Part shown: in pieces, positions 297-17,863 of the stretch
Layout: each line of letters starts with the position of its first letter
How positions within the stretch are numbered: position 1 is the stretch's first letter
NCBI RefSeq assembly: GCF_003148805.1
Contig: NZ_QGGX01000001.1
Location: 1-64,000, forward strand
Source of the DNA: Aminobacter sp. AP02
Lineage (GTDB): Bacteria; Pseudomonadota; Alphaproteobacteria; Rhizobiales; Rhizobiaceae
Reading direction: 5' to 3'
Length of the DNA stretch: 64,000 nucleotides
Position numbers and translations under genes: made by a program
Notes under the pieces: generated by a model
What the model saw: the letters and a program-made list of their open reading frames with translations, nothing else
Told to the model about the DNA's origin: nothing
Databases searched by the model: none

Positions 297-302
297 ATGG
301 GA

Positions 303-1546: not shown

Positions 1547-1552
1547 TAGATT

Positions 1553-1710: not shown

Positions 1711-1916
1711 TGATCGCCTGCTTTCGAGCAATGCGAGATGAAGCGACCACGAGCCGGCGTTGACGAAACCAACCAACTTTCTTGCGGCCCTTCCTCAAGG
1801 ACGGTTTGGCGGAAAAGTTTTCCAGCAGCGGTTCGCTTGCAGGTCGACAGGTGCTTGAGCGCCAAGCCTCTAGTCTCTTTAATCTACTAAATTTGTAGAA
1901 TTAAGGATGAAGGCTT

Positions 1917-2909
1917 TTGGCAGAGAAAGCTGGGAAAAACAGGCGGCACATTCACGTGCCCACGCTTGCGCGCTTGCCGCCGCTAACGTCGTTGCGGGCC
2001 TTTGTCGCTGCGGCACGGCACCTTAGCTTCACTCGCGCCGCAGAGGAACTGCACGTCAGTTCCGCGGCCGTCGGTCAGCAGATCCGCTCATTGGAGGAAT
2101 ATGTCGGTGAGCAGCTGTTTCATCGCAACACCAGCCCGCTGCAGTTGACGCCGGCAGGCCGCGTGCTGATGCCGGGGCTGACCGAAGCGTTTGAGACCGT
2201 TCTTGATGCCGTCTCACGACTGGCCAGCGATATCCAGGATCAACCTGTCAGAGTTTCGGCCGCGCCTTCTTTTGCTGGAAAGTGGCTGGTCTCGCGGCTC
2301 GAGCGCCTGCGATCGTCGGTGCCGGACCTTAGGGTGCAGGTGAATGCCTCGACGGTTCTTGCCGACGTCGAGCGCGAGGACACCGACTGCGCGATCCGCT
2401 TCGGCAACGGCGCCTATCCCGGCCTGTTCGTCGAGCGCCTGTTTTCGGAAGCGGTGGTGCCGGTTTGCAACCAGGAATTTGCGGACAGGTACGATTTGCA
2501 TCCGCGACTGAAGACGCTGCAAGGCATCCCGTTGTTGCACGAGGAAGGTCCCGAATACGACGGCTCGTGTCCGGACTGGCCGACCTGGCTGCGCGGCGAA
2601 GGCATGTCGACCCGCTTCATCGATGACGGCGTTCGGCTCAACCAGTCGTCCCTGGTGCTGGAGGCAGCGGCGGCAGGCCAGGGTCTTGCTCTCGGCAAGG
2701 TGCGCCTTGCCAACGCCGACCTGCGCTCGGGGCGCCTGATGACGCCTTTCGGAAAACCGCAACCGGTGGAGTTCGCCTATTATTTCGTGGCGGCGCCGCG
2801 AAAACTGAAGTCGCCACCGGTGGAACTGTTCCTGGGCTGGCTGCGGGCGGAAGTGCAGTTGGTGCGCGACATCGCCGTGCCGATCGAGGATCAGACTGCG
2901 GCCAACTAG
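1917..2909 (+). CDS. LysR-family transcriptional regulator (GcvA/AmpR-like)
   Basis: The 330-residue protein has the LysR layout. A winged helix-turn-helix lies at about residues 22-80 (LTSLRAFVAAARHLSFTRAA, then SAAVGQQIRSLE, then LTPAGRVL). A periplasmic-binding-fold effector domain follows, starting at VRVSAAPSFAGKWLV, and its sequence resembles the GcvA/TrpI/AmpR subgroup. The start is taken as TTG 1917 because an AAGGA lies nine bases upstream and a stop codon at 1908 closes the frame. GTG 1956 (MPTLARLPPLTS) is a good alternative. It is convergent with the nitroreductase gene, so it does not share a promoter with it. The target and effector are not deducible. Confidence 0.88.
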   Translation: MAEKAGKNRRHIHVPTLARLPPLTSLRAFVAAARHLSFTRAAEELHVSSAAVGQQIRSLEEYVGEQLFHRNTSPLQLTPAGRVLMPGLTEAFETVLDAVSRLASDIQDQPVRVSAAPSFAGKWLVSRLERLRSSVPDLRVQVNASTVLADVEREDTDCAIRFGNGAYPGLFVERLFSEAVVPVCNQEFADRYDLHPRLKTLQGIPLLHEEGPEYDGSCPDWPTWLRGEGMSTRFIDDGVRLNQSSLVLEAAAAGQGLALGKVRLANADLRSGRLMTPFGKPQPVEFAYYFVAAPRKLKSPPVELFLGWLRAEVQLVRDIAVPIEDQTAAN

Positions 2910-2979
2910 CGGCTCAGCACGCGAATTCGGGGTCAGGTAGATTTGGTCGGCCTCGATCGAAGATATTTGCGGCTCTGCT

Positions 2980-3828
2980 TCAGCGCAGCTTGAAACCAAG
3001 TCCCGTCAGCTCCTGGCGCAGCTGGTCACGATTGCGCAAGGCCTCGGTGCTCGAGATCCGTTTGGCGGCCTGCTCGGTCCAGTCGATGGCCGGCATCCGC
3101 TGTTCGGCCTGAAAGCCGCGCAGGGTCTCGTTATAGGCCTTGAGGTCGGCTGGGTCAGCCGTTGTGTAGCGCTCGCGATGCAGTACCACGCGCTGGGGCA
3201 GTCGCGGCTTGACAGCCGATGCCGCGCGGGAATTCGGCACGCCGACGGTCATGCCGAACACGGCAACGACTTCCGGCGGCAATCCAAGCTCGATGGCGAC
3301 CGCCTGGGGATGATTGCGCAGTGCACCGATGTAACAGGTGCCAAGGCCGAGCGCTTCAAACGCCACAAGCGCGTTTTGTGCTGCGAGTGATGCGTCGATG
3401 GCGCCGATGAGGAAGCTTTCGAGATAGTCCAGGCCAAAGGAGGGGATGCCTCGTTCAGCAGCGGCAGTGCGCAGCCTGGACAGGTCGGCCAGCCATACGA
3501 GCAGCACGGGCGCTTCCTCGATCTGGCGCTGGTTGCCGGCGAGGGCGTTGAGACGCGACTTCAGGTCCGCGTCCTCAACGACGATCACATCCCATGCCTG
3601 GAGGTTGGACGAGGACGGTGCCGACTGAGCCGTCGAGATGGCGAGTTCGAGCGCGCCGTCCGGCAATCCCTGGGGCAGATAGCGACGGACCGTACGATGC
3701 GACAGCATCGTCTCGATGGTTTCGTTCCAGTCTGCAGCTGGCGGGGAGCCGTTGCGATAGCGCCCGTGCCAAAGCGGCTGCAGGCGGTCCTGCAACGGGA
3801 ATTCGGAGACGTGAGGGGCATATGTCAT
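2980..3828 (-). CDS. NfsA-like NAD(P)H-dependent FMN nitroreductase
   Basis: The 282-residue protein carries the nitroreductase fold signature. SHRTVRRYLPQGLPDGALEL is the FMN phosphate-binding start and SAPSSSNLQAWDVIVVED follows. Next come FEALGLGTCYIGALRN and FGMTVGVP, and the tail after PRLPQRVVLHRERY resembles oxygen-insensitive NfsA/FRP enzymes. It should reduce nitroaromatics, quinones or flavins in the cytosol. The start is ATG 3828 (MTYAPHVSE); an in-frame upstream extension lacks family character. It stands alone between a convergent LysR gene and the copper-handling operon upstream on the same strand. Confidence 0.85.
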   Translation of the reverse strand: MTYAPHVSEFPLQDRLQPLWHGRYRNGSPPAADWNETIETMLSHRTVRRYLPQGLPDGALELAISTAQSAPSSSNLQAWDVIVVEDADLKSRLNALAGNQRQIEEAPVLLVWLADLSRLRTAAAERGIPSFGLDYLESFLIGAIDASLAAQNALVAFEALGLGTCYIGALRNHPQAVAIELGLPPEVVAVFGMTVGVPNSRAASAVKPRLPQRVVLHRERYTTADPADLKAYNETLRGFQAEQRMPAIDWTEQAAKRISSTEALRNRDQLRQELTGLGFKLR

Positions 3829-3922
3829 GCGCTTGGAATCCTGCTTGGGGCGTTGGGAACTGGCTGTTCGGTGTCCGGCGTGCGAATCGGCGAGAGCGTC
3901 TTGGGGGCTTCGATGGCCAGTT

Positions 3923-4341
3923 CTATCTATCGCCAGCATTGCGAAATGTAAGTTGAAGCGGAACGCGCTCACCCTCCTTCAGGGGTTGCTTAAGCCCGAT
4001 GAGCATCAGGTGGAATGAACCTTCAGCGAATTCGACGCGGCCGTATGCGGGGATGGCGATGCCGTCGAGCCGCGGTCGCTTCTTGGCCACGCCGTCAATG
4101 AGCGAGGTTTCGTGGATTTGGATCCTGTCCGCGAGCGCGCCGCTGGCCCAAAGCAATACATCCTCGGCGCTACCGTCATTGGTCCGCTTCATGTAGGCTG
4201 CGCCGTTGGTCGCCGAGGGCGGCGTTGCATATGCGAACGGGTGACTGATCGAGACCGCGCCGACTTGAAGCCGTGTGCCACGACTACGCCGCTCGACAGG
4301 GCCAGCGCCAAGACCGCCGGCAAGATAGGTTTCTTCCACAT
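3923..4341 (-). pseudogene. PCuAC-type periplasmic copper chaperone, frameshifted
   Basis: The body of the protein (VGAVSISHPFAYATPPSATN, then HETSLIDG, then GSFHLMLIGL) matches the PCuA(C)/DUF461 Cu(I) chaperone family, whose His and Met ligands bind copper in the periplasm. The signal peptide (MWKKPILPAVLALALSSGVV, then VAHGFK) is encoded from ATG 4341 in a different frame. One missing C around 4264 (minus strand AAG-TCGGCG instead of AAG-GTCGGCG) separates the two. The frame that holds the body has its own ATG at 4369 but gives no signal peptide. It lies 28 nt after SCO1. A real mutation and a sequencing error cannot be told apart here. Confidence 0.75.
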
Positions 4342-4369
4342 GAAAGCTCTCTGAGTTCTGGTGGCTCAT

Positions 4370-4957
4370 TTAATCGACGGCCAAAAGCCGCTTCAGCTTC
4401 GCGATCTGAGAGGCGTGTTCCTCAAGATATTCGATCTTGTCGAAGAGGCGGCCTTGCCGATCCATCAGGTAGATGATGGCGGTGTGATCCATGGTGTAGT
4501 CGCCACCGTCGAGAGGCACCTTCCTGTAGGTCGCCCTGAACAGGCGCGCCATGGCGGCGGTTTCCTCGGCGCTGCCGCGCAGCCCGACGATGCGCTTGTC
4601 GAAGGCGCCGAGATAGCTTGACAAGTAGTCCTGCGTGTCCCTCTCCGGATCGACGGTGACGAACACCGGCACGAGCTCGTCGGCGGCGCGGCCGAGTTCG
4701 GCCAGGATGCCGGTCAGTTCGAACAGCGTTGTCGGGCAAACCTCGGGACAATGGGTGAAGCCGAAGAACACCAAGTATGGCTTGCCCTTGAGATCTGCTT
4801 CCGTGAAGCGGGCTCCGCGCTGCGTCGTCAGTCCGAAAGCGCCGCCGATTTCATAGGCTTCGCCGGTAGGCAGCACAGCCGGGTTCGGGCCGGCCAGCGC
4901 AGGCGCGGCGGTGGTTGCCAGCGCGGCGATGAGAAGGAGCAGGGCGGGCTTGTGCAT
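4370..4957 (-). CDS. SCO1/SenC-family copper chaperone
   Basis: The 195-residue protein has an N-terminal signal sequence (MHKPALLLLIAALATTAAPA) and a thioredoxin fold. The copper motif C70-P-E-V-C74 is present (FFGFTHCPEVCPTT), and the conserved distal His lies in YTMDHTAIIYL. SCO proteins deliver copper to, or reduce, the CuA site of cytochrome oxidase and related cuproproteins in the periplasm. It lies 11 nt downstream of the solute-binding-like gene and 28 nt upstream of the PCuAC gene, so the three are probably co-transcribed as a copper-handling unit. Confidence 0.9.
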   Translation of the reverse strand: MHKPALLLLIAALATTAAPALAGPNPAVLPTGEAYEIGGAFGLTTQRGARFTEADLKGKPYLVFFGFTHCPEVCPTTLFELTGILAELGRAADELVPVFVTVDPERDTQDYLSSYLGAFDKRIVGLRGSAEETAAMARLFRATYRKVPLDGGDYTMDHTAIIYLMDRQGRLFDKIEYLEEHASQIAKLKRLLAVD

Positions 4958-4968
4958 GGCGTGGTCTT

Positions 4969-5802
4969 TCAATGGCAATCCGGTGCATCCTGGTCGAGAT
5001 AGACCTCGAACGCGACATTGCGGGCCCATTTGCCCTTCAATTGCTCCCAAGCAGCCGGTGTCGCTATCTTGGCGAGCGCAAGCTTTACGGCACCGGCGAG
5101 GGCCATATCCTGCTTGTCCACTGCGGCCGATAACGCGACGTCCGGCGTGGCAGGCAGCGTCGCGGAGAACTTCTGCCATCCCTGCTCGCGGAATAGGCGC
5201 ACCAAAAGCTGCTCGTCGTGCAACGCCGCGTCGCACACGCCGGTGCGCACCAGGACCAGCGATTTTGCTGGGGTGTCTTCGATGCGGACGATGGCGCCGC
5301 TTCGCCGCGCGAGCGCCCGCGAGGCGGAATTGCCGCGCGAAACACAGACGGTTCGGCCAGTCAGGTCCTCCCAGCTGTCGATGTCGGTATCCGTGCGCAT
5401 GGCGACCGTTGCGCCGGAGGCAAAGCCGACCGGCAAAAGGTCAGCCTCGGCGGCGATGGGGTCAGTGTCGTCGACCCTGGCCAGCACGATCTCGACATCG
5501 TGGCGGGAAAGTGCGGACGCGCGATCCTGGGTCGCGAGTTGGACAAGCTCCAGCTTCCTGCCGAGCTGCGCTGCGATCTTCTCGGCAATGAGCACGTCGA
5601 AGCTCTCGGGCGTGTAGAGCCGAAATTCACTGGTCGCGGGTGCCGGGGGCACGAAGTCCACCCCGACGCGCAGCGGCGCATTGGGTGCGCCATCGGCCGG
5701 CGTGCCCGCCGAGAGCGAGGCGAGCAGTCCGGCTGCAGCCAGCAAACTGCCGGATCTGATGGTGCACCACCGGCGCGGTGATCTATCTCGTGCCTCGGTC
5801 AA
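4969..5802 (-). CDS. Periplasmic solute-binding protein, family 3-like, linked to copper chaperones
   Basis: The 277-residue protein has a signal region (SLLAAAGLLASLSAG) after a basic N-terminus. Type-II periplasmic binding elements follow: LRVGVDFVPPAPATSEFRLY, then FDVLIAEKIAAQLGRKLELV, DDTDPIAAEADLLPVGFASG and LTGRTVCVSRGNSASRAL. It ends in DAPDCH. No permease or ATPase gene adjoins it. It heads an operon with SCO1 and PCuAC, so a role in copper-enzyme assembly or sensing is more likely than transport. Similar orphan binding proteins accompany quinoprotein dehydrogenases, but none is encoded here. Confidence 0.7.
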   Translation of the reverse strand: MTEARDRSPRRWCTIRSGSLLAAAGLLASLSAGTPADGAPNAPLRVGVDFVPPAPATSEFRLYTPESFDVLIAEKIAAQLGRKLELVQLATQDRASALSRHDVEIVLARVDDTDPIAAEADLLPVGFASGATVAMRTDTDIDSWEDLTGRTVCVSRGNSASRALARRSGAIVRIEDTPAKSLVLVRTGVCDAALHDEQLLVRLFREQGWQKFSATLPATPDVALSAAVDKQDMALAGAVKLALAKIATPAAWEQLKGKWARNVAFEVYLDQDAPDCH

Positions 5803-6141
5803 GACGGGGTTCCTGCATCTTGGTATCGACGGTTGTCTAACGCAGAATAATGTCGGGGAGATTGTAGTTATTGTTGATCATGTTGTTAAATAATCTTTAT
5901 CTGGCAGATTTTCATGGCCATTCGGCAACGACAATGGTCGTATGGTAGCAAGGATCGTCCGAAAATCTACGTTGATCGATAAAATAATCTCTGAATTCGA
6001 ACAAAATGAAACCAAGAGTGCTTATTGCCAGCGCAAGAATGGCTGCGTTGACACAAAATATTACGGAAATACCCTCCAGGACTGTTGGATTTTCCCAAGC
6101 CCGGTGCACCGCTGCCAGGGCAGCCGACCAGGAGAACAGTG
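5803..6141. promoter_or_regulatory. Divergent intergenic region, AT-rich
   Basis: These 339 bp separate the copper operon (leftward) from the ABC transport operon (rightward) and must hold both promoters. The stretch 5820-6060 is visibly richer in A/T than its surroundings. A ribosome-binding AGGAGAA lies at 6130-6136, just before ATG 6142. Short frames on both strands show no protein-like composition. Confidence 0.5.
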
Positions 6142-7230
6142 ATGAACCTCAGATCGAAATTGCTGGCCGTGGCCGGCGCAATCGGCATCAGCGCCACCAG
6201 CGTCTTGGCGTTGGGCACGGGAAGCCAACCGGCCTTGGCCAGCGCCAAGGAGCCACTGACCTTTATCAATTTGCCCCAGGCGGCATGGACCGTCGTCGGC
6301 CAACGCAAGGGCATCATCCAGGAAGAATTCGCCAAGATCGGCATAACCGACATCAAGCTGATCAATCCAGGAACGGCAGAACTGTCCGGCGCCGAGGCAG
6401 CGCTGCTCGATCGCGGCGGCCTCGCCATCGCACAACGCATGATGTACCCCGCGACCGTCCACAAAGCGAACGGCATCGATGCCGTGATCGTCTGGCAGTC
6501 GTCGCCTTCGGACAAGTTCCGGACGCCCTTGCTCGCCAAGGCGAGCTCTGACATCAATAGCCCGGTCGACCTCAAGGACAAGAAGTTCGGCGGCAGTCGC
6601 GTAGGCTGCGGCTGGACATCGCCCACCGAGATCCTCAACGAAGCAGGCGTCCCGCTGGACACCCGCATCCGTAAGGGATCGGTCCGCCAGGAGACGATCA
6701 CGAATTCGGCGGCGACGTCGGCAGCACTGCTGAGCGGTGCCATCGATGCCACCGCCACGCATATTGCACTGCCGGCTTCGGCGGCGCTTTGGCTTTCGGG
6801 CGAGGTCAAGGTCGTTGGCCGCAGCCCGGACAATGGCGTCTATGTCAATTCGGCCGGCCGGGTTTCCTATTTTGCCATGCGGCCCTTCGTGGAGGCCTAT
6901 CCCGAAGCGATCCAGGCATTTTTGATTGCGCATGAACGGACCAAGGCGTGGATCCAGGAACATGTCGATGAATCCGCCGAGATCATTGGCGAAGAGCTGC
7001 GCATCCCGGTCAACATCGCAAAGTTCCAGATCACCGATCCGTCGTCGTTCGAATTCATGCAAGGCGAGGCGTCGGCGGACAATGCCAAGAAGGCGATCCG
7101 TGACTTCCAGAAATACTACATCGCAGCAGGCGACGAGATCCTCCAGGAACGTTTCCTGACCGACGAGACGATAGAGCAGTTCGTCGACGCCCGCTTCTTC
7201 AAGGGCGGCGCATATTCCGTCTACAACTGA
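6142..7230 (+). CDS. ABC transporter solute-binding protein, NitT/TauT type
   Basis: The 362-residue protein has a Sec signal (MNLRSKLLAVAGAIGISATS, ending about ALASA). The SsuA/TauA-like type-II binding fold follows: NLPQAAWTVVGQRKGIIQEE, LINPGTAELSGAEAALLDRG and VDLKDKKFGGSRVGCGWTSP. It should capture a small organic anion, plausibly a sulfonate, sulfinate or related acid, in the periplasm and present it to the permease at 7302. The start is ATG 6142 with AGGAGAA nine bases upstream. It is followed by a perfect hairpin and then the permease gene. The ligand is inferred only from the neighbours. Confidence 0.85.
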   Translation: MNLRSKLLAVAGAIGISATSVLALGTGSQPALASAKEPLTFINLPQAAWTVVGQRKGIIQEEFAKIGITDIKLINPGTAELSGAEAALLDRGGLAIAQRMMYPATVHKANGIDAVIVWQSSPSDKFRTPLLAKASSDINSPVDLKDKKFGGSRVGCGWTSPTEILNEAGVPLDTRIRKGSVRQETITNSAATSAALLSGAIDATATHIALPASAALWLSGEVKVVGRSPDNGVYVNSAGRVSYFAMRPFVEAYPEAIQAFLIAHERTKAWIQEHVDESAEIIGEELRIPVNIAKFQITDPSSFEFMQGEASADNAKKAIRDFQKYYIAAGDEILQERFLTDETIEQFVDARFFKGGAYSVYN

Positions 7231-7248
7231 TCCCGCCCAACCGCATCC

Positions 7249-7275
7249 GATCGGCCGCCCCAAGCGCGGCCGATC
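7249..7275 (+). other. Intercistronic hairpin after the binding-protein gene
   Basis: A perfect 10-bp stem (gatcggccgc at 7249-7258, gcggccgatc at 7266-7275) with a 7-nt loop and no T-tract lies between the binding protein and the permease. It probably stabilises the upstream message or partly attenuates the downstream genes. Confidence 0.6.
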
Positions 7276-7301
7276 CATTACCAAGAAATCTGGAGCACAC
7301 A

Positions 7302-8141
7302 ATGAGCGTCACCACGGTGAATGCGACGACGCCGGCTGTGCGCAAAACCCAGCAGCCGGACAAAGCAAACAAGAGGCGCGTGAAGCCGCGTGACCTAGCC
7401 ATCGGCCTAGTCCTGCCGCTGACTATCCTCTTGCTCTGGCAGGTTGCTGCGCAACGGGCCTGGATCTCGCCGATTTTCCTGCCATTACCATCGACGACCC
7501 TGTTTTCCTTCTTCGACATGGTGGAGCGGCAGAGCTTTCACATAGACTTCCTGGCCAGCATCAGCATCGTCACGCAGGCCTTCGTGTACGGCACTTTGCT
7601 CGGCGTGGGTCTCGGCATTGCTGCGGGCCTGTCGCAAACCGTGGAGCGCATTTTCGGGCCGACGCTTGACGGCATTCGCCACATCCCCGGCATCGCTTGG
7701 CTGCCGCTGATCGTTCTCTGGGTTGGCATCGGACCCGCGGCCAAGATCGTCGTCATCACCAAGACGGTGTTCTTTCCCGTCTTCCTCAACACGCTTCAGG
7801 GCATTCGCGCCGTCGAAAAGAACTTTATCGAACTCGCCGACGTCCTAACCCTGACCCGATGGCAGCTGGTGCGCAAGGTGATCATTCCTGGAGCCATGCC
7901 CAGTATCCTGGTGGGAGTGCGCTACGGCGCGAGCCTGGCCTGGGCGCTGGTCGTCGTCGCCGAAGGACTGAGCGGCATGGAAGGCATCGGCTACCTGATC
8001 TTCCGCGCCCAGTCGCTGCTGATGACCGACCAGTTGCTGGTCTGCATGGTCGTTATCGGCGTCGTCGGCTTCCTCATCGACCGCTCCATGGCCCTCCTTC
8101 AACGCCACGTCCTGCGCTGGAAGCAGGGTTTCGAGGGCTGA
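7302..8141 (+). CDS. ABC transporter permease, SsuC/TauC type
   Basis: The 279-residue membrane protein has about six hydrophobic segments, starting with LAIGLVLPLTILLLWQVA. The BPD transport motif that contacts the ATPase lies in the segment from ADVLTLTRWQLVRKVIIPGA to GVRYGASLAWALVVVAEGL. The order GxxPAAKIVVITKTVFFPVF is typical of sulfonate, taurine and nitrate permeases. It works with the binding protein at 6142 and the ATPase at 10422. The two DszB-like genes lie between permease and ATPase, which suggests that their products act on the imported compound. Confidence 0.9.
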   Translation: MSVTTVNATTPAVRKTQQPDKANKRRVKPRDLAIGLVLPLTILLLWQVAAQRAWISPIFLPLPSTTLFSFFDMVERQSFHIDFLASISIVTQAFVYGTLLGVGLGIAAGLSQTVERIFGPTLDGIRHIPGIAWLPLIVLWVGIGPAAKIVVITKTVFFPVFLNTLQGIRAVEKNFIELADVLTLTRWQLVRKVIIPGAMPSILVGVRYGASLAWALVVVAEGLSGMEGIGYLIFRAQSLLMTDQLLVCMVVIGVVGFLIDRSMALLQRHVLRWKQGFEG

Positions 8142-8172
8142 TCCTCACCGCTGGCACGAAGAAAGAAATGAC

Positions 8173-9261
8173 ATGAACACGGCATACAAACCTTCATCCA
8201 GCGAGCTCGCTGCAAGCACGCCGCGCGACTTGCTTTACACTATCTGCCCCGTCCTGGTCGCGTCGAACGTGGCCCTCGAACTCGGCTGGATCGACGACGA
8301 GTTCGCAAGGGTCGGTGCATCGGCGATCTATCTCCGGTCGATCGCTGGCGAAGCCGCCTGGAAAGCGCACTACGACCACTCGTCCGAGCGGCTATTGCGC
8401 GATGGCGGCAACAGCCCCGCGGTGTGGGCCCAGGCCGATCTTCGCCCGACCATCCTGCTTGGCCTGACCCAGGCGCAGCCGGCCGGCAAGATCATCGTGC
8501 GCGCCGATGACGACATCCACCACGTCGGTGAGCTGAAAGGCCGCCGTGTGGCGATCTATAAGAGTCTCAAGTCAGACAAGATCGACCATCGTCGAGCGAC
8601 CAGCCACCACGGCATTCTCGCAGCACTCGCCCTGCATGGCCTAACGCGAGACGACATCGAATGGGTCAATATCGAAGACCATGATGGTCATCTCGAGACA
8701 CCAACACGTACCCCTGCCGGAATCTGGGCACAGCGCCATAGCCAGGTCGACGCCATCGTGGCCGGCGCGCACAGCCGCGAGGCCCGGGCGCTTGGCGAGG
8801 GCAAGGTCGACGCGATCTACGACTATTCGATCGGCACCTCGCACCTGCTCGAACGCAGCGGTCGCTTCAAAGTGATCGAGGATCTCGATCTCTATCCGGA
8901 CTGGACGCTGAAGATCGCCAACGCGCCGCGCACGATCACGGTCAGCAAGGAGTTCGCCGAGGCCAATCGGGACGTGGTCTTGGCCTGGCTTCGCGCCTCG
9001 ATCAGGGCAGGGCGCTGGATCACCGCCAATCCGGAAGCTGCTGCCGAGGTCTTCCTGCGGACGACCATCTATCCTCATGCCGGCGCAATCGCCGATGCAC
9101 TGCGCAGCTTCGACCTGGTGCCAAACCTGTCCGAACAGAACATCGCCGGCCTTACCATCGAGAAGAACTTCCTGTTGTCCAACGGTTACATCAGGAACGA
9201 CTTCGACGTCCCGGCCTGGGCGGACGCTTCGTTTCTCGACGAGGCACTCGCCTCGCTCTGA
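8173..9261 (+). CDS. DszB-like (sulfinate desulfinase family) protein, copy 1
   Basis: The 362-residue protein has a type-II binding-protein fold but no signal peptide, so it should be cytosolic. Its layout follows DszB, the 2'-hydroxybiphenyl-2-sulfinate desulfinase. Cys25 sits in YTICPVLVASN (DszB Cys27). His66 and Arg76-x-Gly-Gly (HYDHSSERLLRDGGN) match DszB His60 and Arg70, with the same ten-residue spacing. The C-terminus FLLSNGY...WADASFLDEAL also parallels DszB. It could remove sulfite from an imported sulfinate, or be a soluble binding protein. The alignment is from memory of the family, so the reaction and substrate are inference. It is a paralogue of the next gene. Confidence 0.65.
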   Translation: MNTAYKPSSSELAASTPRDLLYTICPVLVASNVALELGWIDDEFARVGASAIYLRSIAGEAAWKAHYDHSSERLLRDGGNSPAVWAQADLRPTILLGLTQAQPAGKIIVRADDDIHHVGELKGRRVAIYKSLKSDKIDHRRATSHHGILAALALHGLTRDDIEWVNIEDHDGHLETPTRTPAGIWAQRHSQVDAIVAGAHSREARALGEGKVDAIYDYSIGTSHLLERSGRFKVIEDLDLYPDWTLKIANAPRTITVSKEFAEANRDVVLAWLRASIRAGRWITANPEAAAEVFLRTTIYPHAGAIADALRSFDLVPNLSEQNIAGLTIEKNFLLSNGYIRNDFDVPAWADASFLDEALASL

Positions 9262-9296
9262 TCCCCTAACAAAAAATCGAAACTAGGAGAGTTTTC

Positions 9297-10361
9297 ATGG
9301 TTGAAGTTCTGGAACGCGCGCCGGCGGGAAAAACCGTCGAGGTCGGGGCCCGTGAAGCCTACTACACTATCTGCCCGGTATTCGTGGCATCGAACGTCGC
9401 ACAGGAATTCGGCTGGATCGAAGAGGAGTTCAACAAGATCGGGGCCAAGCTGTCTTACCTACGCGCGCTCGCGCCTGAACAGGGCTATCTCCCCCATTTC
9501 GGTCACCAGCTCGACCACCTGTTCCGCGACGGTGGCAACATTCCTTCGATCTGGGCGAAGGCCGACGTGACAGACACTACGCTGATCGCGCTGACGGCCG
9601 GCCATCACGGCGGCCAGATCGTCGTCCGGGCCGACTCCGACATCAACCGCGTCGGCGACCTGAAAGGGCGTAGGTTCGGGCTCTACAAGAGTCAGAACAG
9701 CGACAAGGTCGACTGGTGGCGTGCGACGGGCGCACGCGGCATCCTGGTTGCGCTGAAGCTTGCCGGACTGCAACGGTCCGACGTCGAGATCGTCGATGCG
9801 CCGGCCGAGGACCGCGGCTTTGGCAACGCCAGCCGTCCCTCGGAACTGTGGTCGCAGCGCCGGCGTGAGGATCTCGTCTATACCGCCGAGGTACGTCTCC
9901 TCGAAGAGGGCAAGGTCGACGCGGTCTATACCAGCCATGGACGTGGCCAGACGCTCGAGCGCACCGGCAAGTACAAGGTCATCGAGGACTTCTCGCGCTA
10001 TCCGGACTGGACACTCCAGGTGGCGAACAGCCCCTACGCGCTGACCGTCAACAGCGACTTCGCACGCAACAACAGGGACATCGTCGTGGCGTTCCTGAAG
10101 GCGACGGTGCGCGCGGCGCGCTGGATCAACGCCAACCGCGAAGCGGCCGCCACTGTGCTGAACCGCGTGACCTATCACCAGACCCCGGCGGATACGGCAG
10201 CAGCGATCGAAGCCACCGATTTCCTGCCCAACCTGTCGGCGCAGAACCTGGCCGGTCTCGACATACAGAAGAAGTTCCTCGTCGACCACGGATACGTGAA
10301 GCGCGACTTCGACAGCAGGAAGTGGGCTGACGCCAGCTACCTTGAAGAAGCGCTTAGGTAG
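9297..10361 (+). CDS. DszB-like (sulfinate desulfinase family) protein, copy 2
   Basis: The 354-residue paralogue of the preceding protein also lacks an export signal (MVEVLERAPAGKTVEVGARE). The presumed triad is kept: Cys26 in YYTICPVFVASN, and His67 and Arg77-x-Gly-Gly in PHFGHQLDHLFRDGGN. Shared blocks include DLKGRRFGLYKSQNSDKVDW and RTGKYKVIEDFSRYPDWTLQ, but the middle section (RPSELWSQRRREDLVYTAE) differs, so the copies may prefer different substrates. An AGGAGAG precedes ATG 9297. A desulfinase-like role is inferred from conserved residues; a pure binding role remains possible. Confidence 0.65.
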   Translation: MVEVLERAPAGKTVEVGAREAYYTICPVFVASNVAQEFGWIEEEFNKIGAKLSYLRALAPEQGYLPHFGHQLDHLFRDGGNIPSIWAKADVTDTTLIALTAGHHGGQIVVRADSDINRVGDLKGRRFGLYKSQNSDKVDWWRATGARGILVALKLAGLQRSDVEIVDAPAEDRGFGNASRPSELWSQRRREDLVYTAEVRLLEEGKVDAVYTSHGRGQTLERTGKYKVIEDFSRYPDWTLQVANSPYALTVNSDFARNNRDIVVAFLKATVRAARWINANREAAATVLNRVTYHQTPADTAAAIEATDFLPNLSAQNLAGLDIQKKFLVDHGYVKRDFDSRKWADASYLEEALR

Positions 10362-10377
10362 CTTTGATCTTTGAATC

Positions 10378-10403
10378 GAGCCTCCCGGTCGACCGGGAGG
10401 CTC
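10378..10403 (+). repeat. 26-bp perfect palindrome between the DszB-like and ATPase genes
   Basis: Bases 10378-10390 (gagcctcccggtc) are the exact reverse complement of 10391-10403. The element lies 17 nt after the stop of the preceding gene and 18 nt before ATG 10422. There is no T-tract, so it is better explained as an mRNA-stabilising or attenuating hairpin than as a full terminator. The centre gtcgac could also be a protein site. Confidence 0.65.
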
Positions 10404-10421
10404 CCAGCAGGCAGGACGGCC

Positions 10422-11201
10422 ATGAGCGAGCGCGGCAACCTTGAAATCAGTAACGTCAGCAAATCCTACCAGGTGGAGGGGAAAGAGCTGCGGGTGCTGG
10501 ACCACATCAATCTCAAAGTGGCGCCGGGCGAGTTCATCTCGATCGTCGGTCCGTCGGGCTGCGGCAAGTCCACGCTGTTGCGCCTTGTCGTCGGTCTCGA
10601 CGACAACTACGGTGGAGAAATCCTACTGGATAACAAGCCGATCAGCGGCACAAGCCTGCAGCGGGGGATCGTTTTCCAGGATCACCGCCTGCTGCCCTGG
10701 CTGACGCTCGAGGACAACATCGACTTGGCGCTCGAGAATTCCGGCCTGCCCAATGCGCAGCGCCGGCGCGCAGTGGCCGAGCACGTTGCGCTGGTCGGCC
10801 TGACAGGGTTCGAGAAGGTCTATCCGCACCAGCTGTCCGGAGGCATGTCGCAGCGCGCCGCTATTGCCCGCGGGCTTGTATCTCGCCCGGAGATCCTACT
10901 GCTCGACGAGCCGCTGGGAGCACTCGATGCGCTGACCCGGCTCAGGCTGCAGGAGGAGCTGCTGCGGATCTGGAGGGCCGAACGCGTCACGATGCTACTG
11001 GTCACTCACGACGTCGAGGAGGCGATCTATCTCAGCGACCGCATCGTCGTCATGCATTCCACGCCGGGCCGCATCGCTAGCGACATCAAGGTCGACCTGC
11101 CCTGGCCACGTGACCGCGCCAGCCACGAGTTTGCGGATGTCAGGCGTGAGATCCTGCGCAGCATGGATGCCTATTCGTCGGTGGCGGCACGGGCTGCGTA
11201 A
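10422..11201 (+). CDS. ABC transporter ATPase, SsuB/TauB type
   Basis: The 259-residue ATPase has Walker A GPSGCGKST at residues 43-51, a Q-loop in VFQDHRLLPWLTLEDN, the signature LSGGMSQRAAIARGL, Walker B ILLLDEPLGALD and the switch His in LLVTHDVEEA. The segment DHRLLPWLTLEDNI is typical of the nitrate/sulfonate/taurine subfamily. It powers the permease at 7302. The start is ATG 10422 (MSERGNLEIS), just after the palindrome; an upstream in-frame start would lie inside that palindrome. The next gene follows two bases after its stop. Confidence 0.92.
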   Translation: MSERGNLEISNVSKSYQVEGKELRVLDHINLKVAPGEFISIVGPSGCGKSTLLRLVVGLDDNYGGEILLDNKPISGTSLQRGIVFQDHRLLPWLTLEDNIDLALENSGLPNAQRRRAVAEHVALVGLTGFEKVYPHQLSGGMSQRAAIARGLVSRPEILLLDEPLGALDALTRLRLQEELLRIWRAERVTMLLVTHDVEEAIYLSDRIVVMHSTPGRIASDIKVDLPWPRDRASHEFADVRREILRSMDAYSSVAARAA

Positions 11202-11203
11202 CG

Positions 11204-11677
11204 ATGGGTCTCACAGTCGCGCACACCATTCTGGCTACAGCTTTCGTGGCGGCGATTGCCTGCCAGGCAATGGCGGCGGACACCCCGCCGTCGAGCGCGC
11301 TGCCCGATCTTTCGGCCATCACGGCGAAGATATACGCAGAACGCTATGCCGAAGCCGCCGACGAGTTGCAGAAACTCACGGCCACCGTCCAGAACGCCGA
11401 TCTCTACAATCTCCTCGGCTTCAGCCTGCGCAACCTTGACCGCGATGAGGAGGCAGGCAAATGGTATCGCCACGCATTGTATTACGATCCCGACCACAAG
11501 GGCGCGCTCGAATATCAGGGCGAACTGTTCCTGAAGCTCGGCCAGCCCGAACGCGCCAAGGCAAATGTCCAGAAGCTGACGTTTCTATGCCCCGACGGGT
11601 GCGACGAGCTCGATGCCCTAAACCTGGCTATCGCCGAATCCCACGGCACGGGCATGTCATTGCAAAGATTCCCCTGA
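11204..11677 (+). CDS. Exported TPR-repeat protein
   Basis: The 157-residue protein has a clear signal peptide (MGLTVAHTILATAFVAAIAC, cleavage probably near QAMAA). About two tetratricopeptide repeats follow (ADLYNLLGFSLRNLDRDEEA, then KWYRHALYYDPDHKGALEYQ, then LGQPERAKANVQKL). A small CPDGCDELDAL segment near the C-terminus has two cysteines three residues apart. It starts two bases after the ATPase stop, so it is the last gene of the transport operon. TPR proteins are scaffolds; a periplasmic partner cannot be named. It might bridge the binding protein to another component. Confidence 0.75.
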   Translation: MGLTVAHTILATAFVAAIACQAMAADTPPSSALPDLSAITAKIYAERYAEAADELQKLTATVQNADLYNLLGFSLRNLDRDEEAGKWYRHALYYDPDHKGALEYQGELFLKLGQPERAKANVQKLTFLCPDGCDELDALNLAIAESHGTGMSLQRFP

Positions 11678-11900
11678 CCGGGGCCCCGCACTCGCCATCA
11701 TCGATATCCATAGCTATTTCGTCGACCAGACCGACCAGACTTCGGCCTTGACTACGACTGATGCAACGACAGACCGGTTAAGGTGGTGGAGGCGCCAGAT
11801 CGTCGGCAACAAGCCGGAATGGCATACCGAAGCCGTCTGGGGGAACAACCTCAGAGCCCGCCCGGACTGTAAAACCCCGGTTCACGTCAAAACAAATGCT
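11678..11900. other. Intergenic segment without recognised gene
   Basis: These 223 bp follow the TPR gene. No supported protein, RNA or repeat was found. One frame starting GPALAIIDIHSYFVDQ looks protein-like for a short stretch and may be a remnant, but no family was recognised. Confidence 0.3.
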
Positions 11901-12388
11901 TTAGTGTTCAGTTGCAGCCTCGAAAGCAGGACGGCTTGCCTCGATCATGTCTGCAGTGCCCGTCAGGCTGATCCGGAAGTCTGTAGGCCGGTCGAAGAGC
12001 GTTCCCGGCATCACGAAGACACCTTGATCCGCCAGTCTGCGGGTGAAGCCAACTGAGTCGCCGCCCGGCGCGCGCCCCCAGAGGTAGAATGTGCCTTCTG
12101 GCTTGGTCATGCTGTAGCCCCATTGCGTCAGCCGCCGTGCAGCCGGTCGCGCTTACGCTGCAGTTCGCCGATGTCGATGCTAATCCTTTCAAGATCGCCG
12201 ACCGCATATCGCAGGGGCGCATCGGGAAAGTTCCACCTGCCACCGACCTGCGAAGTCAACGCCGCCGCACGCAGGACTTCTTTGTCGGCCTCGGGTATGG
12301 ACGGGCAGGCGGCGAGGTAGCCGATACACAGGCCCGGCGCGAGCAGGATTTTGCGGTAGCTGTAATCGATGGGCGTGTGGAGATAGGC
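11901..12388 (-). pseudogene. Class I/II aminotransferase, C-terminal fragment
   Basis: On the minus strand from 12388, the residues FDNAYLHTPIDYSYRKILLA, then PGLCIGYLAACP, resemble the C-terminal half of fold-I aspartate/aromatic aminotransferases. They run to RLHGG and a TGA. A shift near 12135 opens the next frame (LTQWGYSMTKPEGTFYLWGR, then VMPGTLFDRPTDFRISLT) to the stop at 11901. The N-terminal half with the PLP lysine is missing, cut by the IS6-type element that starts at 12389. It is non-functional. Confidence 0.75.
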
Positions 12389-13176
12389 GTTATCAAACTA
12401 ACTCGCGTTCAGGGATTTGCGGCATAGACCGATGGCATGAACACCGCGACCGTCAGCTATAAGCGCCATCGTTTCCCGCCGCAGATCATCGCCCATGCCG
12501 TCTGGCTCTACTACAGGTTCCCATTGAGCCTGCGTCTGGTCGAGGAAATGCTGCCGGAGCGCGGGATCGGGGTTTCGTATGAGACAATCCGCCGGTGGGG
12601 CAGCAAGTTCGGGCGGGATTACGCCCGCCGCTTGCGCCGCAAGCAGCCAGCCGAAACGATGTCTGTCACTTGGATGAGGTCGTCATCACCATCGCCGGCA
12701 GGAAACACTGGTTATGGCGCGCCGTCGACTAGGATGGCTATGTGCTCGATGAGATCGTCCAGAATCGCCGCAACACCAAGGCAGCCAAGCGCTTGCTAAC
12801 GCGGCTGTTGAAGAAGCAAGGCGCTGCGCCGAAGCGCATGATCACCGACAAGCTGCCCTCCTATGGAGCAGCCCGGCGACAGGTGATGCCGGACGTCGAG
12901 CATCGGTCGCACAAGGGATTGAACAACCGGGCGGAGAATGCACATGTGTCGCTGCGAAAGCAGGAGCGGATGATGCAAGGCTTCCGATCACCAGGAGCAC
13001 TGCAACGCTTCGTTTCGATCTTCTCGGCGCTGCGCAATCTCTTCGTTCCACCTCGCTCAAAACGCTTCGCTCTCGCCACACATTTTCACCGCCTGCGGGC
13101 CATGGCGGAATGGAAAGCCGTGACCGTGATCAACTGACATCAGCGGCTGCAGGTCTCAACACGTTTATCAGACAAC
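12389..13176 (+). mobile_element. IS6-family insertion sequence, degenerate
   Basis: A segment of about 790 bp holds one IS6-type transposase pseudogene. The proposed ends are gttatcaaactaac (12389-12402) and the reverse complement of gtttatcagacaac (13163-13176), which agree at 9 of 14 positions. That is a weak pair, so the ends are approximate. The left end truncates an aminotransferase gene; no matching fragment was found beyond the right end. Confidence 0.6.
12437..13137 (+). pseudogene. IS6-family transposase, frameshift and stop
   Basis: It begins at ATG 12437 (MNTATVSYKRHRFPPQIIAH) with the IS6 helix-turn-helix and LRLVEEMLPERGIGVSYETI. After KQPAE (about 12655) the catalytic core continues in another frame (CHLDEVVITIAGRKHWLWRA), which then meets TAG at 12730 where VDQDGYVLDE is expected. 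The remainder, MLDEIVQNRRNTKAAKRLLT through RAENAHVSLRKQERMMQGFR, carries the second Asp (ITDKLPSY) and the Glu. One frameshift and one nonsense codon make it inactive. Confidence 0.85.
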
Positions 13177-13293
13177 GTGACATCGCCGGTCCGGGTTGCA
13201 AGGGCAGATCGGGGCGGGTGAGAGACACCCATCGGCTTTAGCTTTCTCAGTTTCAATTATTGCGTTCCTGGTAGATGTTGCAGGCAGCTGAAT

Positions 13294-14052
13294 GTGCAGG
13301 GGCAGGATCTCGCGGTGCTTCCGGAAATCAAGCTGATGGGTGATGTCGATGTAGCCGCGCTGTCGCCGCTGCTTCGCGGCATGACCAAGACTGTTTCCTA
13401 CGCAGAGACCCAGGGAGGCATCAGCCTGACCGCGTCGGGGGCGATGAACCGCAAGTTCGTCCACTGGGCCGCTGTTCACTTCGATTGGCCCGGCTACACG
13501 TCGGACGACTTATACAGCATCAACAAGGTTCTCAACGAAGCCGATATGCCGCCGCTTTTGGTCGTCCGTGACATGGTCAAGTACTTGCGGCTTCTGCGGC
13601 GGCGAAAGGATGTACTGGTACCAACCCAACGCGGCCGAGACTTTCTGGCGAGACCGCAGGCCTTCTTCGATCTGATCGCGACGGATTATCTTTATGCTTA
13701 TATCCATTACAGGCAGACGCAGGAGGCCGTCCGCAATCGGATGCGTTGGTGGCACGTCTTTCTCAATCTTATTAATATGAAAGCAGAAACGGGCTGTTCG
13801 TTGGACGACCTGGCGAACGAGGTATATCCGAGCGAATCGTACCTGGAGCCAGCAGAAATGACTGTCGAAACCTGGGCGGAAAGGTCGGCGCTCCGCTACG
13901 ATATCATTCGACCGCTGTGCTGGCTGGGATTACTGCACGAAGATCGCGAGGGGCTGACGATTTGGCAGGATGGGACCTACCACAAGACACCGTTGTGGCC
14001 TGCCTGCTTAAAGCTAGACTCCGACATGCAATCCGAACTCACTCTCCATTGA
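13294..14052 (+). CDS. Conserved hypothetical protein, possibly N-terminally truncated
   Basis: A 252-residue frame opens at GTG 13294 without a convincing ribosome-binding site. Visible features are SLTASGAMNRKFVHWAAVHF, YSINKVLNEADMPPLLVVRD, a basic stretch YLRLLRRRKDVLVPTQRGRD and a tryptophan-rich C-terminal half (RMRWWHVFLNLINMKAE). The GxxLTxxG...R-type opening recalls plasmid-borne rhizobial hypothetical proteins, but no function is known to me. It is bounded by IS6 remains on the left, and its last codons run into the ISNCY transposase end at 14039. The original gene may therefore have lost sequence at either end. Confidence 0.5.
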   Translation: MQGQDLAVLPEIKLMGDVDVAALSPLLRGMTKTVSYAETQGGISLTASGAMNRKFVHWAAVHFDWPGYTSDDLYSINKVLNEADMPPLLVVRDMVKYLRLLRRRKDVLVPTQRGRDFLARPQAFFDLIATDYLYAYIHYRQTQEAVRNRMRWWHVFLNLINMKAETGCSLDDLANEVYPSESYLEPAEMTVETWAERSALRYDIIRPLCWLGLLHEDREGLTIWQDGTYHKTPLWPACLKLDSDMQSELTLH

Positions 14053-15454
14053 GCCGTGCCGGGTAACTTTGTCCTTGCTCCACCGCACTTTGCTGGGAAA
14101 GCGCCTGCCGCCGCCGAGCAATGATCGCGGGATCGGTCATGAAATCCGTCCGCTTACCCGGCTTGCGGCCACGCGGTTTGTAGCCAATCTTCTCGCTGTT
14201 CGTCTTCACGGCCGGCTTCGTCTGCTGCTCCTGACGTTCCTTGATGTAGGCCAGGACATCACCGAGCCGCTTGTTGTCGATGATCGCCGCATGGCTCACC
14301 CGCTGGTCCTTATCGAACACCCGATAGGGCAAGGAATGCCCCTTCCACCGCACATCTAATCGACCATCCGCATATGCGTAGGTCTCGACATAGCGACCAG
14401 CTAGGCCGCGTGTCACCTCGGTCTCCACCAGCATGATCCGCTGGCGCTCAAACGAAAACGTCAACTGCGATGCGACATAACGCTGCTCACGTTTGCAGAG
14501 AATCTCGTTGAGCCGATCCGGGGCCAGATTTATCGATCGGTGCAGGTCATCTGGCCGGGCAGGGACGATCGCAAACCGCGCATTGTAGTGCTCCATGAAG
14601 GTCGGCAGGAATGCATTGCCTGCCGCCATGTCGTCGATGCCGCCCAATCGCAATTCCTTGACCAGCCGATCCTGCAGCGTCCGATTCATCCGCTCGACGC
14701 GGCCCTTGGCTTGGCTCGAATTTGCACAGAGTATCTCGATACTTAGCTCTGAAGGCGCACGCCCGAACTGAGTCATGCCCTGACCACCCCTGGCATCCTT
14801 CTTCGCTACCCGGAACACCGAATGTTTGTCGGAGTAAAAGGCGACAGGTGCCCCATGTTGCCTTAGGTACAGCGCCAGCGCTTCAAAGTAAGTGAACGCG
14901 CTTTCCGAGCGCACAAAGCGCAACTCCATCAACTTGCCCGTCGCATCGTCGACGAACACCAAAAGCGGGCACGGTGGCCCACGATCCTCGAACCAGCGAT
15001 GCTAGGAGCCATCGATCTGCACCAGCTCGCCATAGGCCTCACGCCGCAGCCGCGGCTGATGGAACGTCCGTCGTTGTTGGCGTGACAGCCAAAGACCAGC
15101 CTCCGACATCCAGCCGCGCAATGTCTCGCGCGACACCTGCAATCCGTCACGCGCGGCAAGCTTCTCGGTCGCCAACGTCGGACCGAAATCCGCATAGCGT
15201 TCGCGAACCAGCGTCATCGCGTAATCCCGAACACCGTCACTGATCCGGTTGTTCGACGGCCGACTGATCGCCTTGTGCCGGATCGACGCCGCACCGCCAG
15301 TACTGAGCCGCTCCAAGTGTCGACGGACCTGGCGCGTGCTCAGATCGAGCACATGCGCCGCCGACACCAGCGTCATCCGGCCGGCGACGACTTTTGACAA
15401 AACCTCGATCCGCTGCAAATCGCGCTCGCTCATCGCAATCAATCCCATCCGCAA
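14039..15454 (-). pseudogene. ISNCY-type transposase interrupted by one amber codon
   Basis: The gene reads in one frame from ATG 15454 (MRMGLIAMSERDLQRIEVLS), a helix-turn-helix domain (LSTRQVRRHLERL), to the stop at 14039. A single TAG at 15004-15002 falls after ELVQIDGS and before HRWFEDRGPPCPLLVFVDDA. DDE residues are visible as VQIDGS, FYSDKHSVF and AKGRVERMN, followed by the basic tail typical of these ISNCY (IS1202-like) enzymes. It is otherwise intact over about 470 codons, so the decay is recent or a truncated N-terminal product (about 150 residues) is made. Repeats at 15485-15526 may mark its upstream end. Confidence 0.8.
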
Positions 15455-15484
15455 ACTCCCGCGTCGTCAAAACGCGGGTAGAGT

Positions 15485-15526
15485 GACATTCTTACTTTGC
15501 AGGATCAGGACATTCTAACTTTGCGG
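15485..15526 (+). repeat. Tandem direct repeat at the ISNCY element end
   Basis: Two near-identical copies of gacattctNactttgc begin at 15485 and 15509, a 24-bp period. They lie just upstream of the transposase gene, where ISNCY elements often carry repeated transposase-binding motifs. Confidence 0.55.
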
Positions 15527-15592
15527 CTACACCGATATGCCGGGTAATCTAAATTATGGAACTAGCTGATTGATATTATTAATGAAACTGGC

Positions 15593-15919
15593 TCAGTCTG
15601 CCGAGTTTTGGAGCCACGCTGGAATGTCACGCTTGCCATGTAGTATGCGCCAGACGTCGATATGATCCGCCTGCTCACTATAGAAAATTACATACGGGTG
15701 GCGCTTGAGACGCACCGTGCGCAACCCGGGCAAGCCAAGCTCATATGCATATCGCAATAAGCCCGATGCAGGCTGATCTGCGATCAATGCGTATGCCTTC
15801 TGGAGGTCATCGACGAAACCCAAGGCGGCGTTGACGCCTGCTTGCTGGCCGTAATGATCGAGCGCGTCTTCGATATTTAGTCGTGCTAGTGCTCGAGGGA
15901 TAACTGCCCTCTCGGTCAC
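15593..15919 (-). CDS. parE: ParE/RelE-superfamily toxin
   Basis: The 108-residue basic protein has the ParE pattern: ARLNIEDALDHYGQQAG (first helices), FVDDLQKAYALIADQPASGL and the core strand pair LRTVRLKRHPYVIFY followed by IDVWRILHGKRDIPAWL. ParE toxins poison DNA gyrase; RelE relatives cleave mRNA. The protein starts at GTG 15919, which overlaps the TGA of the antitoxin gene by four bases, so the two are translationally coupled. It sits among transposase relics, a common location for such modules. Confidence 0.85.
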   Translation of the reverse strand: MTERAVIPRALARLNIEDALDHYGQQAGVNAALGFVDDLQKAYALIADQPASGLLRYAYELGLPGLRTVRLKRHPYVIFYSEQADHIDVWRILHGKRDIPAWLQNSAD

Positions 15920-16155
15920 GATTTCTGGTGACCCTGGGCTCGCGTTCGGAGGCTGACGAAATACCCGTCGTCGATCGGAGTAGTTGTTTCTGACGACGCG
16001 CCGTCGAGTAGCAATCGACGCAGGTTCTGGCGATCCTGATCGCGGCGGATCAGTTCGCGAACATATTCGCTGCTCGTGCCATAACCTCGCCCGGAGACCT
16101 GCTGGTCGACGAAGCTTTTCAGGCTATCCGGCAGTGATATGTTCATGGTGCTCAT
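15916..16155 (-). CDS. parD: ParD-type ribbon-helix-helix antitoxin
   Basis: The 79-residue protein begins MSTMNISLPDSLKSFVDQQV, the ribbon-helix-helix DNA-binding region. It continues with SGRGYGTSSEYVRELIRRDQ, a close match to the ParD/CopG-like consensus. The C-terminal part wraps the toxin. The start is ATG 16155; an in-frame upstream extension lacks family character. It probably represses its own promoter in the segment 16156-16230 together with ParE. Confidence 0.87.
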   Translation of the reverse strand: MSTMNISLPDSLKSFVDQQVSGRGYGTSSEYVRELIRRDQDRQNLRRLLLDGASSETTTPIDDGYFVSLRTRAQGHQKS

Positions 16156-16434
16156 GACAGGAAAAATAGCTCCTATGGCAAAAATTGGCAAGATGCGTTG
16201 ACTATGACGACGAAGCCTTTTGCACATCGAGCCACGTCAGGTAGATCGCCAAGCGTGACAACGGCGATCGCGCCGCTGTTGCCCAAGGGCTCCGAATTCG
16301 CAATATCGCGCAAACGCCGTTCGATGCTTGTCGTGGGTATAGCGATTGCCGTTCATTGCAATGAACATGGGCGGCAAGCGGAACAGGAACGGTTCTGTCG
16401 CAAACTCATCTTCAGGACGGATTAACCCAATGCC

Positions 16435-16628
16435 CGGCGCCGTTGTACAGCGAGGATATCGAACTGCTCGGCGAATGACGGTGCCGGATTGCAGGCGTAC
16501 CTTGCCTGTCGTTTGCGCATCATGTGAACCATCTCGATGCCGGACAGGATCGTCGCGGCGCAGGTCATCGTCGTCAGCTTTTGAGAACGGTTGATCTGTA
16601 AGGCGAATTTGCGCAAGCTCTTCGTCAA
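16435..16628 (-). pseudogene. IS6-family transposase C-terminal remnant
   Basis: On the minus strand, NRSQKLTTMTCAATILSGIE, then MVHMMRKRQARYACNPAPSF and AEQFDILA, correspond to the end of IS6-type transposases (GIEVVHMMRKRQ followed by an AEQF motif). Only about 60 residues remain and nothing upstream in the frame matches the catalytic core. From 16156 to 16434 I see no supported gene. This is a scar between the ParDE module and the dgo genes. Confidence 0.55.
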
Positions 16629-16677
16629 TCGGCCGTCGGCATGCTGGCGATATTTTTGGGCAATCGATCAAAGCGCC

Positions 16678-17826: not shown

Positions 17827-17863
17827 GGTGCAGGCACGACTCCAGATGGGCTGCTACGCCCGT

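Follow-up and report, generated by a model that had tools for sequence, protein, structure and literature searches.

The window analysed here, i.e. the whole stretch of 64,000 nucleotides at positions 1 to 64,000 of contig NZ_QGGX01000001.1 (Aminobacter sp. AP02), carries two tandem genes at 8173–10361 whose products are 49% identical to each other; the original prediction had named such a tandem, and both open reading frames (ORFs) were recovered at these coordinates. The pair sits between the permease and ATPase genes of a sulfonate-type importer. The plus-strand gene order is exported SsuA-like substrate-binding protein (SBP), permease, DszB1, DszB2, ATPase and TPR protein, and a divergent minus-strand group encodes SBP3, SCO1 and an NfsA/FRP-type reductase. 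The features of the locus are as follows:

2980–3972, minus strand: NfsA/FRP-type NADPH nitro/flavin reductase; homologue at 7/7 loci (window and L003–L008)
4370–4957, minus strand: SCO1/SenC-like protein; start probably Met94 of a longer ORF, 4370–5236
4969–5802, minus strand: SBP family 3 protein preceding SCO1; same pair at the ends of Ancylobacter loci L003–L005
6142–7230, plus strand: exported SsuA-like substrate-binding protein with an N-terminal hydrophobic segment and without Cys/His/Arg, opening the importer operon; its start is set at the ATG at 6142, inside a longer ORF, 6085–7230
7302–8141, plus strand: ABC permease; best NCBIfam models SaoP, SsuC and TauC, all below cut-off
8173–9261, plus strand: DszB-like protein 1 (P0001), 362 aa, predicted cytosolic sulfinate desulfinase, without signal peptide
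9297–10361, plus strand: DszB-like protein 2 (P0002), 354 aa, paralogue with the same catalytic set, without signal peptide
10422–11201, plus strand: ABC ATPase; best NCBIfam models of SaoA, NtrCD, PhnT2, TauB and SsuB type, all below cut-off
11204–11677, plus strand: TPR protein with an N-terminal hydrophobic segment; homologue beside the ATPase in 4/4 Ancylobacter loci

The cluster is flanked by transposase-like ORFs (775–1356, 12437–13137 and 14039–15454), which we take to be IS110-, IS6- and IS481-like, and their presence on both sides suggests a mobile or rearranged region. Two small adjacent ORFs on the minus strand at 15593–16227 are presumably a ParD/ParE-like toxin-antitoxin pair. No compositional anomaly was seen, with a GC content of 0.62 in the cluster versus 0.63 at 18000–64000. 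Within positions 1–19000 we found neither a monooxygenase gene nor dszA or dszC beside the pair, and across the whole window three Ancylobacter queries gave no monooxygenase gene and nothing beyond weak pieces, and a DszA-family query had no real match. One such piece lies at 6032–6124, just before the exported SBP gene, where 31 residues match the C-terminal end of the Ancylobacter LLM (FMN monooxygenase) by tblastn (E = 0.004); translations of this stretch bear only a weak resemblance to the Ancylobacter protein, and it is perhaps a relic of a monooxygenase gene, perhaps a chance match. Elsewhere, the window's genome has seven LLM matches, all outside the neighbourhood of the pair, and one of them is 52% identical to the Ancylobacter gene and adjoins an SsuA_fam SBP and permease- and ATPase-like ORFs.

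As the original prediction anticipated, the usual label for both proteins is ABC solute-binding protein: the Pfam model NMT1, a solute-binding family, matches both above its cut-off, and the SsuA_fam model matches both below its own. It had also held that neither protein has an export signal, and the first in-frame starts and the hydrophobicity of the first 45 residues point the same way. The ATG of each gene is the first start codon past the upstream in-frame stop, so that a longer N-terminus is impossible. Within the first 45 residues the hydrophobicity peak of both proteins begins at residue 23 and is the conserved Cys-bearing YTICPV strand; in two other products of the cluster, the exported SBP and the TPR protein, it lies at residues 6–20. 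A hydrophobic segment preceding the domain is absent from P0001, from P0002 and from all of the relatives checked (10/10), and neither sequence contains the signal peptide typical of exported SsuA-type solute-binding proteins.

A search of 177,635 distinct PDB sequences gave DszB as the top match for each protein, with almost the entire length aligned (E = 1.8e-8 for P0001 and 1.4e-6 for P0002), and the best non-DszB chains are binding proteins at E = 0.013 and 0.029 respectively. With a profile of 25 family members (alignment A2), DszB scored E = 2.5e-39, and the strongest chain other than DszB was a binding protein at E = 4e-7. When the AlphaFold models (mean pLDDT 86 for P0001 and 88 for P0002) were compared with known structures by Foldseek, three DszB chains took ranks 1–3 for both models (E = 1.3e-20 to 6.9e-19 for P0001, 3.1e-19 to 5.3e-19 for P0002), followed by SsuA at about 4e-15. 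That DszB tops the PDB sequence, family-profile and both model searches places the likeness beyond chance. The TM-scores to DszB are moderate (0.71–0.77) and those of the next-listed SsuA/TauA chains reach from 0.58 to 0.75. What sets the pair apart from plain binding proteins is therefore less the overall fold than the E-values and the residues. The fold alignments with DszB show a low identity of 21–24%. The original prediction that the C-termini also parallel DszB is borne out in the alignment, where Trp349 is invariant in 25/25 family rows. In the P0001 model, low-confidence blocks at 61–70 and 191–200 lie within the stretches aligned with DszB 55–62 and 187–204, and in the P0002 model only the first of these is clearly low (60); in DszB the two loops turn helical upon substrate binding, according to PMC6100217.

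The core of the original prediction was a Cys in YTICPV and an H-x9-R-x-G-G arrangement equivalent to Cys27, His60 and Arg70 of DszB. Both elements are present in both proteins, and the Cys, His and Arg positions align with those of DszB in the sequence alignment and in the fold alignment of the predicted models. The corresponding codons are:

8245–8247, plus strand: Cys25 of P0001, aligned with DszB Cys27 (Thr23 aligned with Ser25)
8368–8400, plus strand: His66 (DszB His60) and His69 (DszB Tyr63) through Arg76 (DszB Arg70) of P0001, then Gly78-Gly79
9372–9374, plus strand: Cys26 of P0002, aligned with DszB Cys27
9495–9527, plus strand: His67 through Arg77 of P0002 (DszB His60–Arg70)

Where DszB has Tyr24-Ser25-Asn26-Cys27 and His60-x9-Arg70-x-Gly72-Gly73, P0001 (C25/H66/R76) and P0002 (C26/H67/R77) have Tyr-Thr-Ile-Cys and His-x9-Arg-Asp-Gly-Gly. 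The His-to-Arg spacing of 10 residues is that of DszB H60–R70, whereas the Cys-to-His spacing is 41 in the pair and 33 in DszB. Cys, Arg and Gly-Gly are kept in 32/32 tabulated relatives (33/33 rows with DszB), as is a hydroxyl at DszB position 25 (33/33 rows; Thr in all 32 relatives, Ser25 in DszB), and the His60 equivalent is kept in 31/32 (32/33 rows with DszB), being lost in L011_7507. By contrast, 0/8 binding proteins from such clusters keep the Cys, His or Arg, a set of eight in which one (L039) aligns poorly and export is assumed from annotation or family, with an N-terminal hydrophobic segment confirmed for three (window, L007, L013). Alignment A2 has 16 invariant columns, which include S25 (as Thr), C27, R70 and G73 of the published five-residue active-site model; the remaining residue, His, is nearly invariant. 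The RXGG motif (Arg70 and Gly73 in DszB), retained in 32/32 relatives, is described as highly conserved among DszB homologues in PMC6100217, where C27 is the proton donor (or the nucleophile in an earlier proposal), H60 and S25 form a dyad, R70 and G73 lie at the sulfinate, and an H60Q variant is still active at a level ~17-fold lower.

Around this set the pocket differs from that of DszB. Tyr63 is replaced by His in 30/32 relatives, giving HxxH; Trp155 has no counterpart (a gap in 32/32); and Phe203 falls in a gap in 30/32 and is Val or Ala in 2, in a loop whose alignment is uncertain. The aromatic residue at Phe61 is kept, as Tyr67 in P0001 and Phe68 in P0002. The motif table and tree comprise 32 relatives and leave out copies from L004, L006, L014, L033 (one of two), L038, L042 (two of three), L043, L045, L046 and L049–L051; among 21 family ORFs of these loci, two of which the tree also contains, the complete motif is present in 19, while L042:2174 (not in the tree) lacks it and L046:6064 covers the C-terminal part of a gene split over two ORFs. 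L007:3316, whose start codon is unsettled, was omitted from structure alignments A4 and A5.

In the tree, DszB and the 32 relatives fall on one side of a branch with 100/99 support and the binding proteins on the other, and the window proteins belong to a 17-row clade (100/100); the DszB branch is long, which makes its exact placement unsure. One scan of GTDB, confined to loci that contain short exact peptide patterns, turned up close relatives at four Ancylobacter loci, one Devosia locus and one Opitutaceae locus, at 64–70% identity. The two genes are separate orthologous lines (P1–P1 62–68%, P2–P2 70–71%, P1–P2 49–50%), with 25 positions fixed differently between them, and dN/dS values of 0.09–0.18 indicate purifying selection (four Ancylobacter species, with six comparisons for each gene and 12 in all). 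The largest number of copies among the 29 family loci is found in an Opitutaceae MAG (L007:3316–10008), where six tandem DszB-like genes lie between permease and ATPase; two TonB-receptor-like genes lie downstream of this array. The close clade is rare, being present in 2 of 297 genomes of the taxonomic family, own genome included (the second being matched only in part, at the end of a contig; E <= 1e-60), and in the own genome only in the class (386 genomes) and phylum (397 genomes) samples (E <= 1e-70, with the best few first-look candidates per genome scored). The broader family occurs in 8/397 genomes of the order, own included (E <= 1e-50), and 92 plasmid records match P0001 when counted by E-value (E <= 1e-5) and not by motif, 50 of them from Sinorhizobium and 22 from Rhizobium. 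More distant members with YTNCP/FTNCP (L009:7953–9119, L034:8684–9889) lie near SulP permease and rhodanese-type genes, and L009 also has 2-hydroxyacyl-CoA dehydratases and their activases. On viral contigs, 33 stretches matched the search pattern and none encodes a relative.

The wider family is recurrently linked to flavin monooxygenases, and the close relatives to a flavin reductase and sulfur transport. A flavin monooxygenase (LLM) or DszC/SfnB-like gene is found at 21/29 family loci versus 0/20 control stretches (arbitrary 17-kb stretches from four of the same genomes); the 29 loci are not independent, and the count becomes 14/21 once near-duplicates are removed by hand and 9/16 once L003, L010, L011, L013 and L044, from which the reference LLM/ACAD proteins were drawn, are removed as well. 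L006 is scored negative despite an MsnO8-type LLM. An Ssu- or Opp-type ABC component occurs at 25/29 family loci, and among the 20 controls Ssu-type genes occur in 4 and Opp-type in 1, labels assigned at E <= 1e-15 that match any ABC ATPase and so are a weak criterion. Within the window's own 17-row clade a monooxygenase gene is nearby in the Ancylobacter loci only, which makes the oxygenase step the weakest link of the argument for this clade; the other positive loci are in the sister branch or not placed in the tree. L007, L008, L009, L012, L033 and L034 showed no monooxygenase gene, and the last four of these no flavin reductase.

In Ancylobacter L003–L005, the window's genes are accompanied by genes for a MauG-like protein, an NtaA/DmoA-family FMN monooxygenase and an FAD protein, between SCO1 and the reductase (the L006 stretch starts inside the FAD gene). 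The window matches this three-gene block in weak pieces only. Family scans on the L003 copies assigned the FMN monooxygenase to TIGR03860, with YtnJ, NTA monooxygenase and DszA as PDB kin. Behind the DszB1 orthologue in Devosia come genes for a sulfate SBP, CysT, CysW and CysA, each above an NCBIfam cut-off. On the rhizobial and Paracoccus plasmids (L010, L044, L045, L049, L051), DszB-like genes, annotated in all five as ABC transporter substrate-binding protein, occur with DszC/SfnB-like and LLM genes and Opp-type transporters (the L049 stretch without LLM). Recurrent neighbours are of sulfur-acquisition types (SfnB/DszC-like, NtaA/DmoA/SfnG-like and sulfate ABC genes), and some relatives adjoin 2-hydroxyacyl-CoA dehydratases or a homocysteine S-methyltransferase. 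Four loci (L009, L034, L040 and L041) have no matched Ssu- or Opp-type genes, and there the family members adjoin SulP/rhodanese-like or monooxygenase genes. SBP3, SCO1 and MauG upstream in Ancylobacter form what we take to be a resemblance to the mtoX cluster. A link to methanethiol oxidase was dropped: PF05694 (SBP56) lies on another contig of the window's genome and is present in 0/6 genomes of the relatives. The SBP56 (methanethiol oxidase family) gene is at 182324–183697 of contig C6.

Homology to DszB, conservation of Cys/His/Arg/Gly-Gly and Thr, lack of a signal peptide and position in an SsuABC-type operon are all established here by computation. Judging from sequence, the pair probably represents cytosolic sulfinate desulfinases of the DszB superfamily that serve sulfur scavenging. 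The DszB-type reading first proposed for these proteins is upheld by homology, aligned residues, N-termini and context, with catalysis and substrate as predictions, and so is its placement outside the dibenzothiophene pathway, as no dsz operon was found here and DszB Trp155 and Phe203 have no counterpart. The reaction would be R-SO2- + H2O -> R-H + HSO3-, a hydrolytic removal of sulfite from an organic sulfinate. The importer would bring in an organosulfur compound (a sulfonate, sulfinate or sulfone), and the sulfinate would be made by a flavin monooxygenase whose gene lies next to the pair in Ancylobacter but elsewhere in this genome. The Arg and Gly-Gly loop would hold the sulfinate, and the Cys thiol, aided by the His–Thr pair, would either protonate the C–S carbon, as computed for DszB, or attack the sulfur; the released sulfite would feed sulfur assimilation. 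The mechanism computed for DszB is electrophilic aromatic substitution, as given in PMC6100217. It needs an aryl sulfinate, and this counts against our reading, as the pair shows no sign of an aryl substrate. The paralogues have been maintained as two distinct orthologous lines and probably act on different substrates.

The altered pocket (Trp155 and Phe203 not kept, Tyr63 replaced by His in 30/32 rows) also favours a different reaction for these Cys/His/Arg enzymes within the DszB clade, e.g. one that cleaves a sulfonate or sulfone directly or removes some other acidic group, and the dehydratase or methyltransferase genes near some relatives fit such a reading; yet the sulfinate-binding set (Arg, Gly-Gly, His and hydroxyl) is kept complete and the recurring neighbours are of sulfur-acquisition types, and we give this alternative a small chance. 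About as improbable, if not slightly more so, are non-catalytic cytosolic binding-fold subunits of the ABC importer, acting as sensors or as receivers of substrate in trans. In CmpC/NrtC-type ATPases an SBP-like C-terminal domain has a regulatory role, and the regulatory domain of CmpABCD is indeed a Foldseek match of both models (E about 4e-10); the genes also lie between permease and ATPase, and an Ssu-type importer is present at most close loci. However, in those Foldseek lists the E-values of DszB are better by nine to ten orders of magnitude, the catalytic residues are invariant, family members occur without matched Ssu- or Opp-type genes at the four loci named above, and six copies at one importer (L007) are hard to square with regulators.

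A role as ordinary solute-binding proteins of the periplasm, with export by a route that escaped recognition, is what the NMT1 match above cut-off and the SsuA_fam match below it would suggest, but we regard this as very improbable: there is no upstream in-frame start codon, no N-terminal hydrophobic segment in either protein or in 10/10 relatives, the operon already encodes an exported SBP, and tree and profile group the pair with DszB. HMP synthases of the THI5/NMT1 type have a Cys-rich CCCFC motif as their hallmark; it is absent from both proteins, whose Foldseek match to this group (E about 1e-12) ranks behind DszB and SsuA, and this candidate was rejected. Beyond the preferred reading of the pair as sulfinate desulfinases, we offer a broader and decidedly more tentative suggestion, i.e. 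that the DszB superfamily is patchily widespread and misannotated outside fossil-sulfur metabolism, that HxxH and a pocket without aryl residues have taken it beyond DszB's aromatic chemistry to desulfination of alkyl (non-aromatic) sulfinates, and that tandem paralogues (two here, six in Opitutaceae) are substrate-specific sets fed by one importer.

The literature that we found places DszB in a fuel-biodesulfurization setting, as the rate-limiting and least understood step (PMC6100217). If our reading is true, natural relatives hidden as ABC transporter substrate-binding proteins in soil and root-nodule bacteria would offer new starting enzymes and would reveal a natural cellular recovery of sulfur from sulfinates. 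In the PMC literature, which covers few subscription papers, we found no paper on tandem DszB-like proteins within a sulfonate-type importer operon or in Ancylobacter, and no leads on sulfolane. The nearest precedent in the literature is the bds genes of Gordonia: according to PMC3868597, the experimentally tested benzothiophene operon of Gordonia terrae C-6 (bdsABC, a desulfinase with flavin monooxygenases) lies, by gene number, among sulfonate/taurine-type ABC genes. The likeness is one of gene context, and the window pair differs in having no adjacent monooxygenase.

With DszB proper, the HBPS desulfinase of the 4S pathway, the pair shares fold, length, lack of a signal peptide, Cys27/His60/Arg70/Gly72-Gly73, the position-25 hydroxyl, an aromatic at Phe61 and the C-terminal segment. 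It differs in its 21–24% identity, its Cys–His distance (41, not 33), His69 and HxxH in place of Tyr63, the want of its aryl-pocket residues (no Trp155/Phe203 counterparts) and of linked dszA/dszC, none being found alongside, and in forming two paralogues inside an ABC importer operon. The DszB-like plasmid genes of Sinorhizobium, Ensifer, Mesorhizobium and Paracoccus (with SfnB/DszC-like and/or LLM genes and Opp-type ABC genes) likewise keep the motif under a substrate-binding-protein annotation, but are of YTRCP/YTQCP type with a peptide-type rather than Ssu-type transporter, and the two placed in the tree, L010 and L044, belong to the sister branch. The SsuA/TauA sulfonate-binding proteins differ in being exported, and 0/8 binding proteins tested keep Cys, His or Arg; they have the binding-protein fold in common with the pair and probably share its ancestry. 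Should the desulfinase reading hold, a transport-protein fold would have turned enzyme, and then multiplied, inside a transporter operon.
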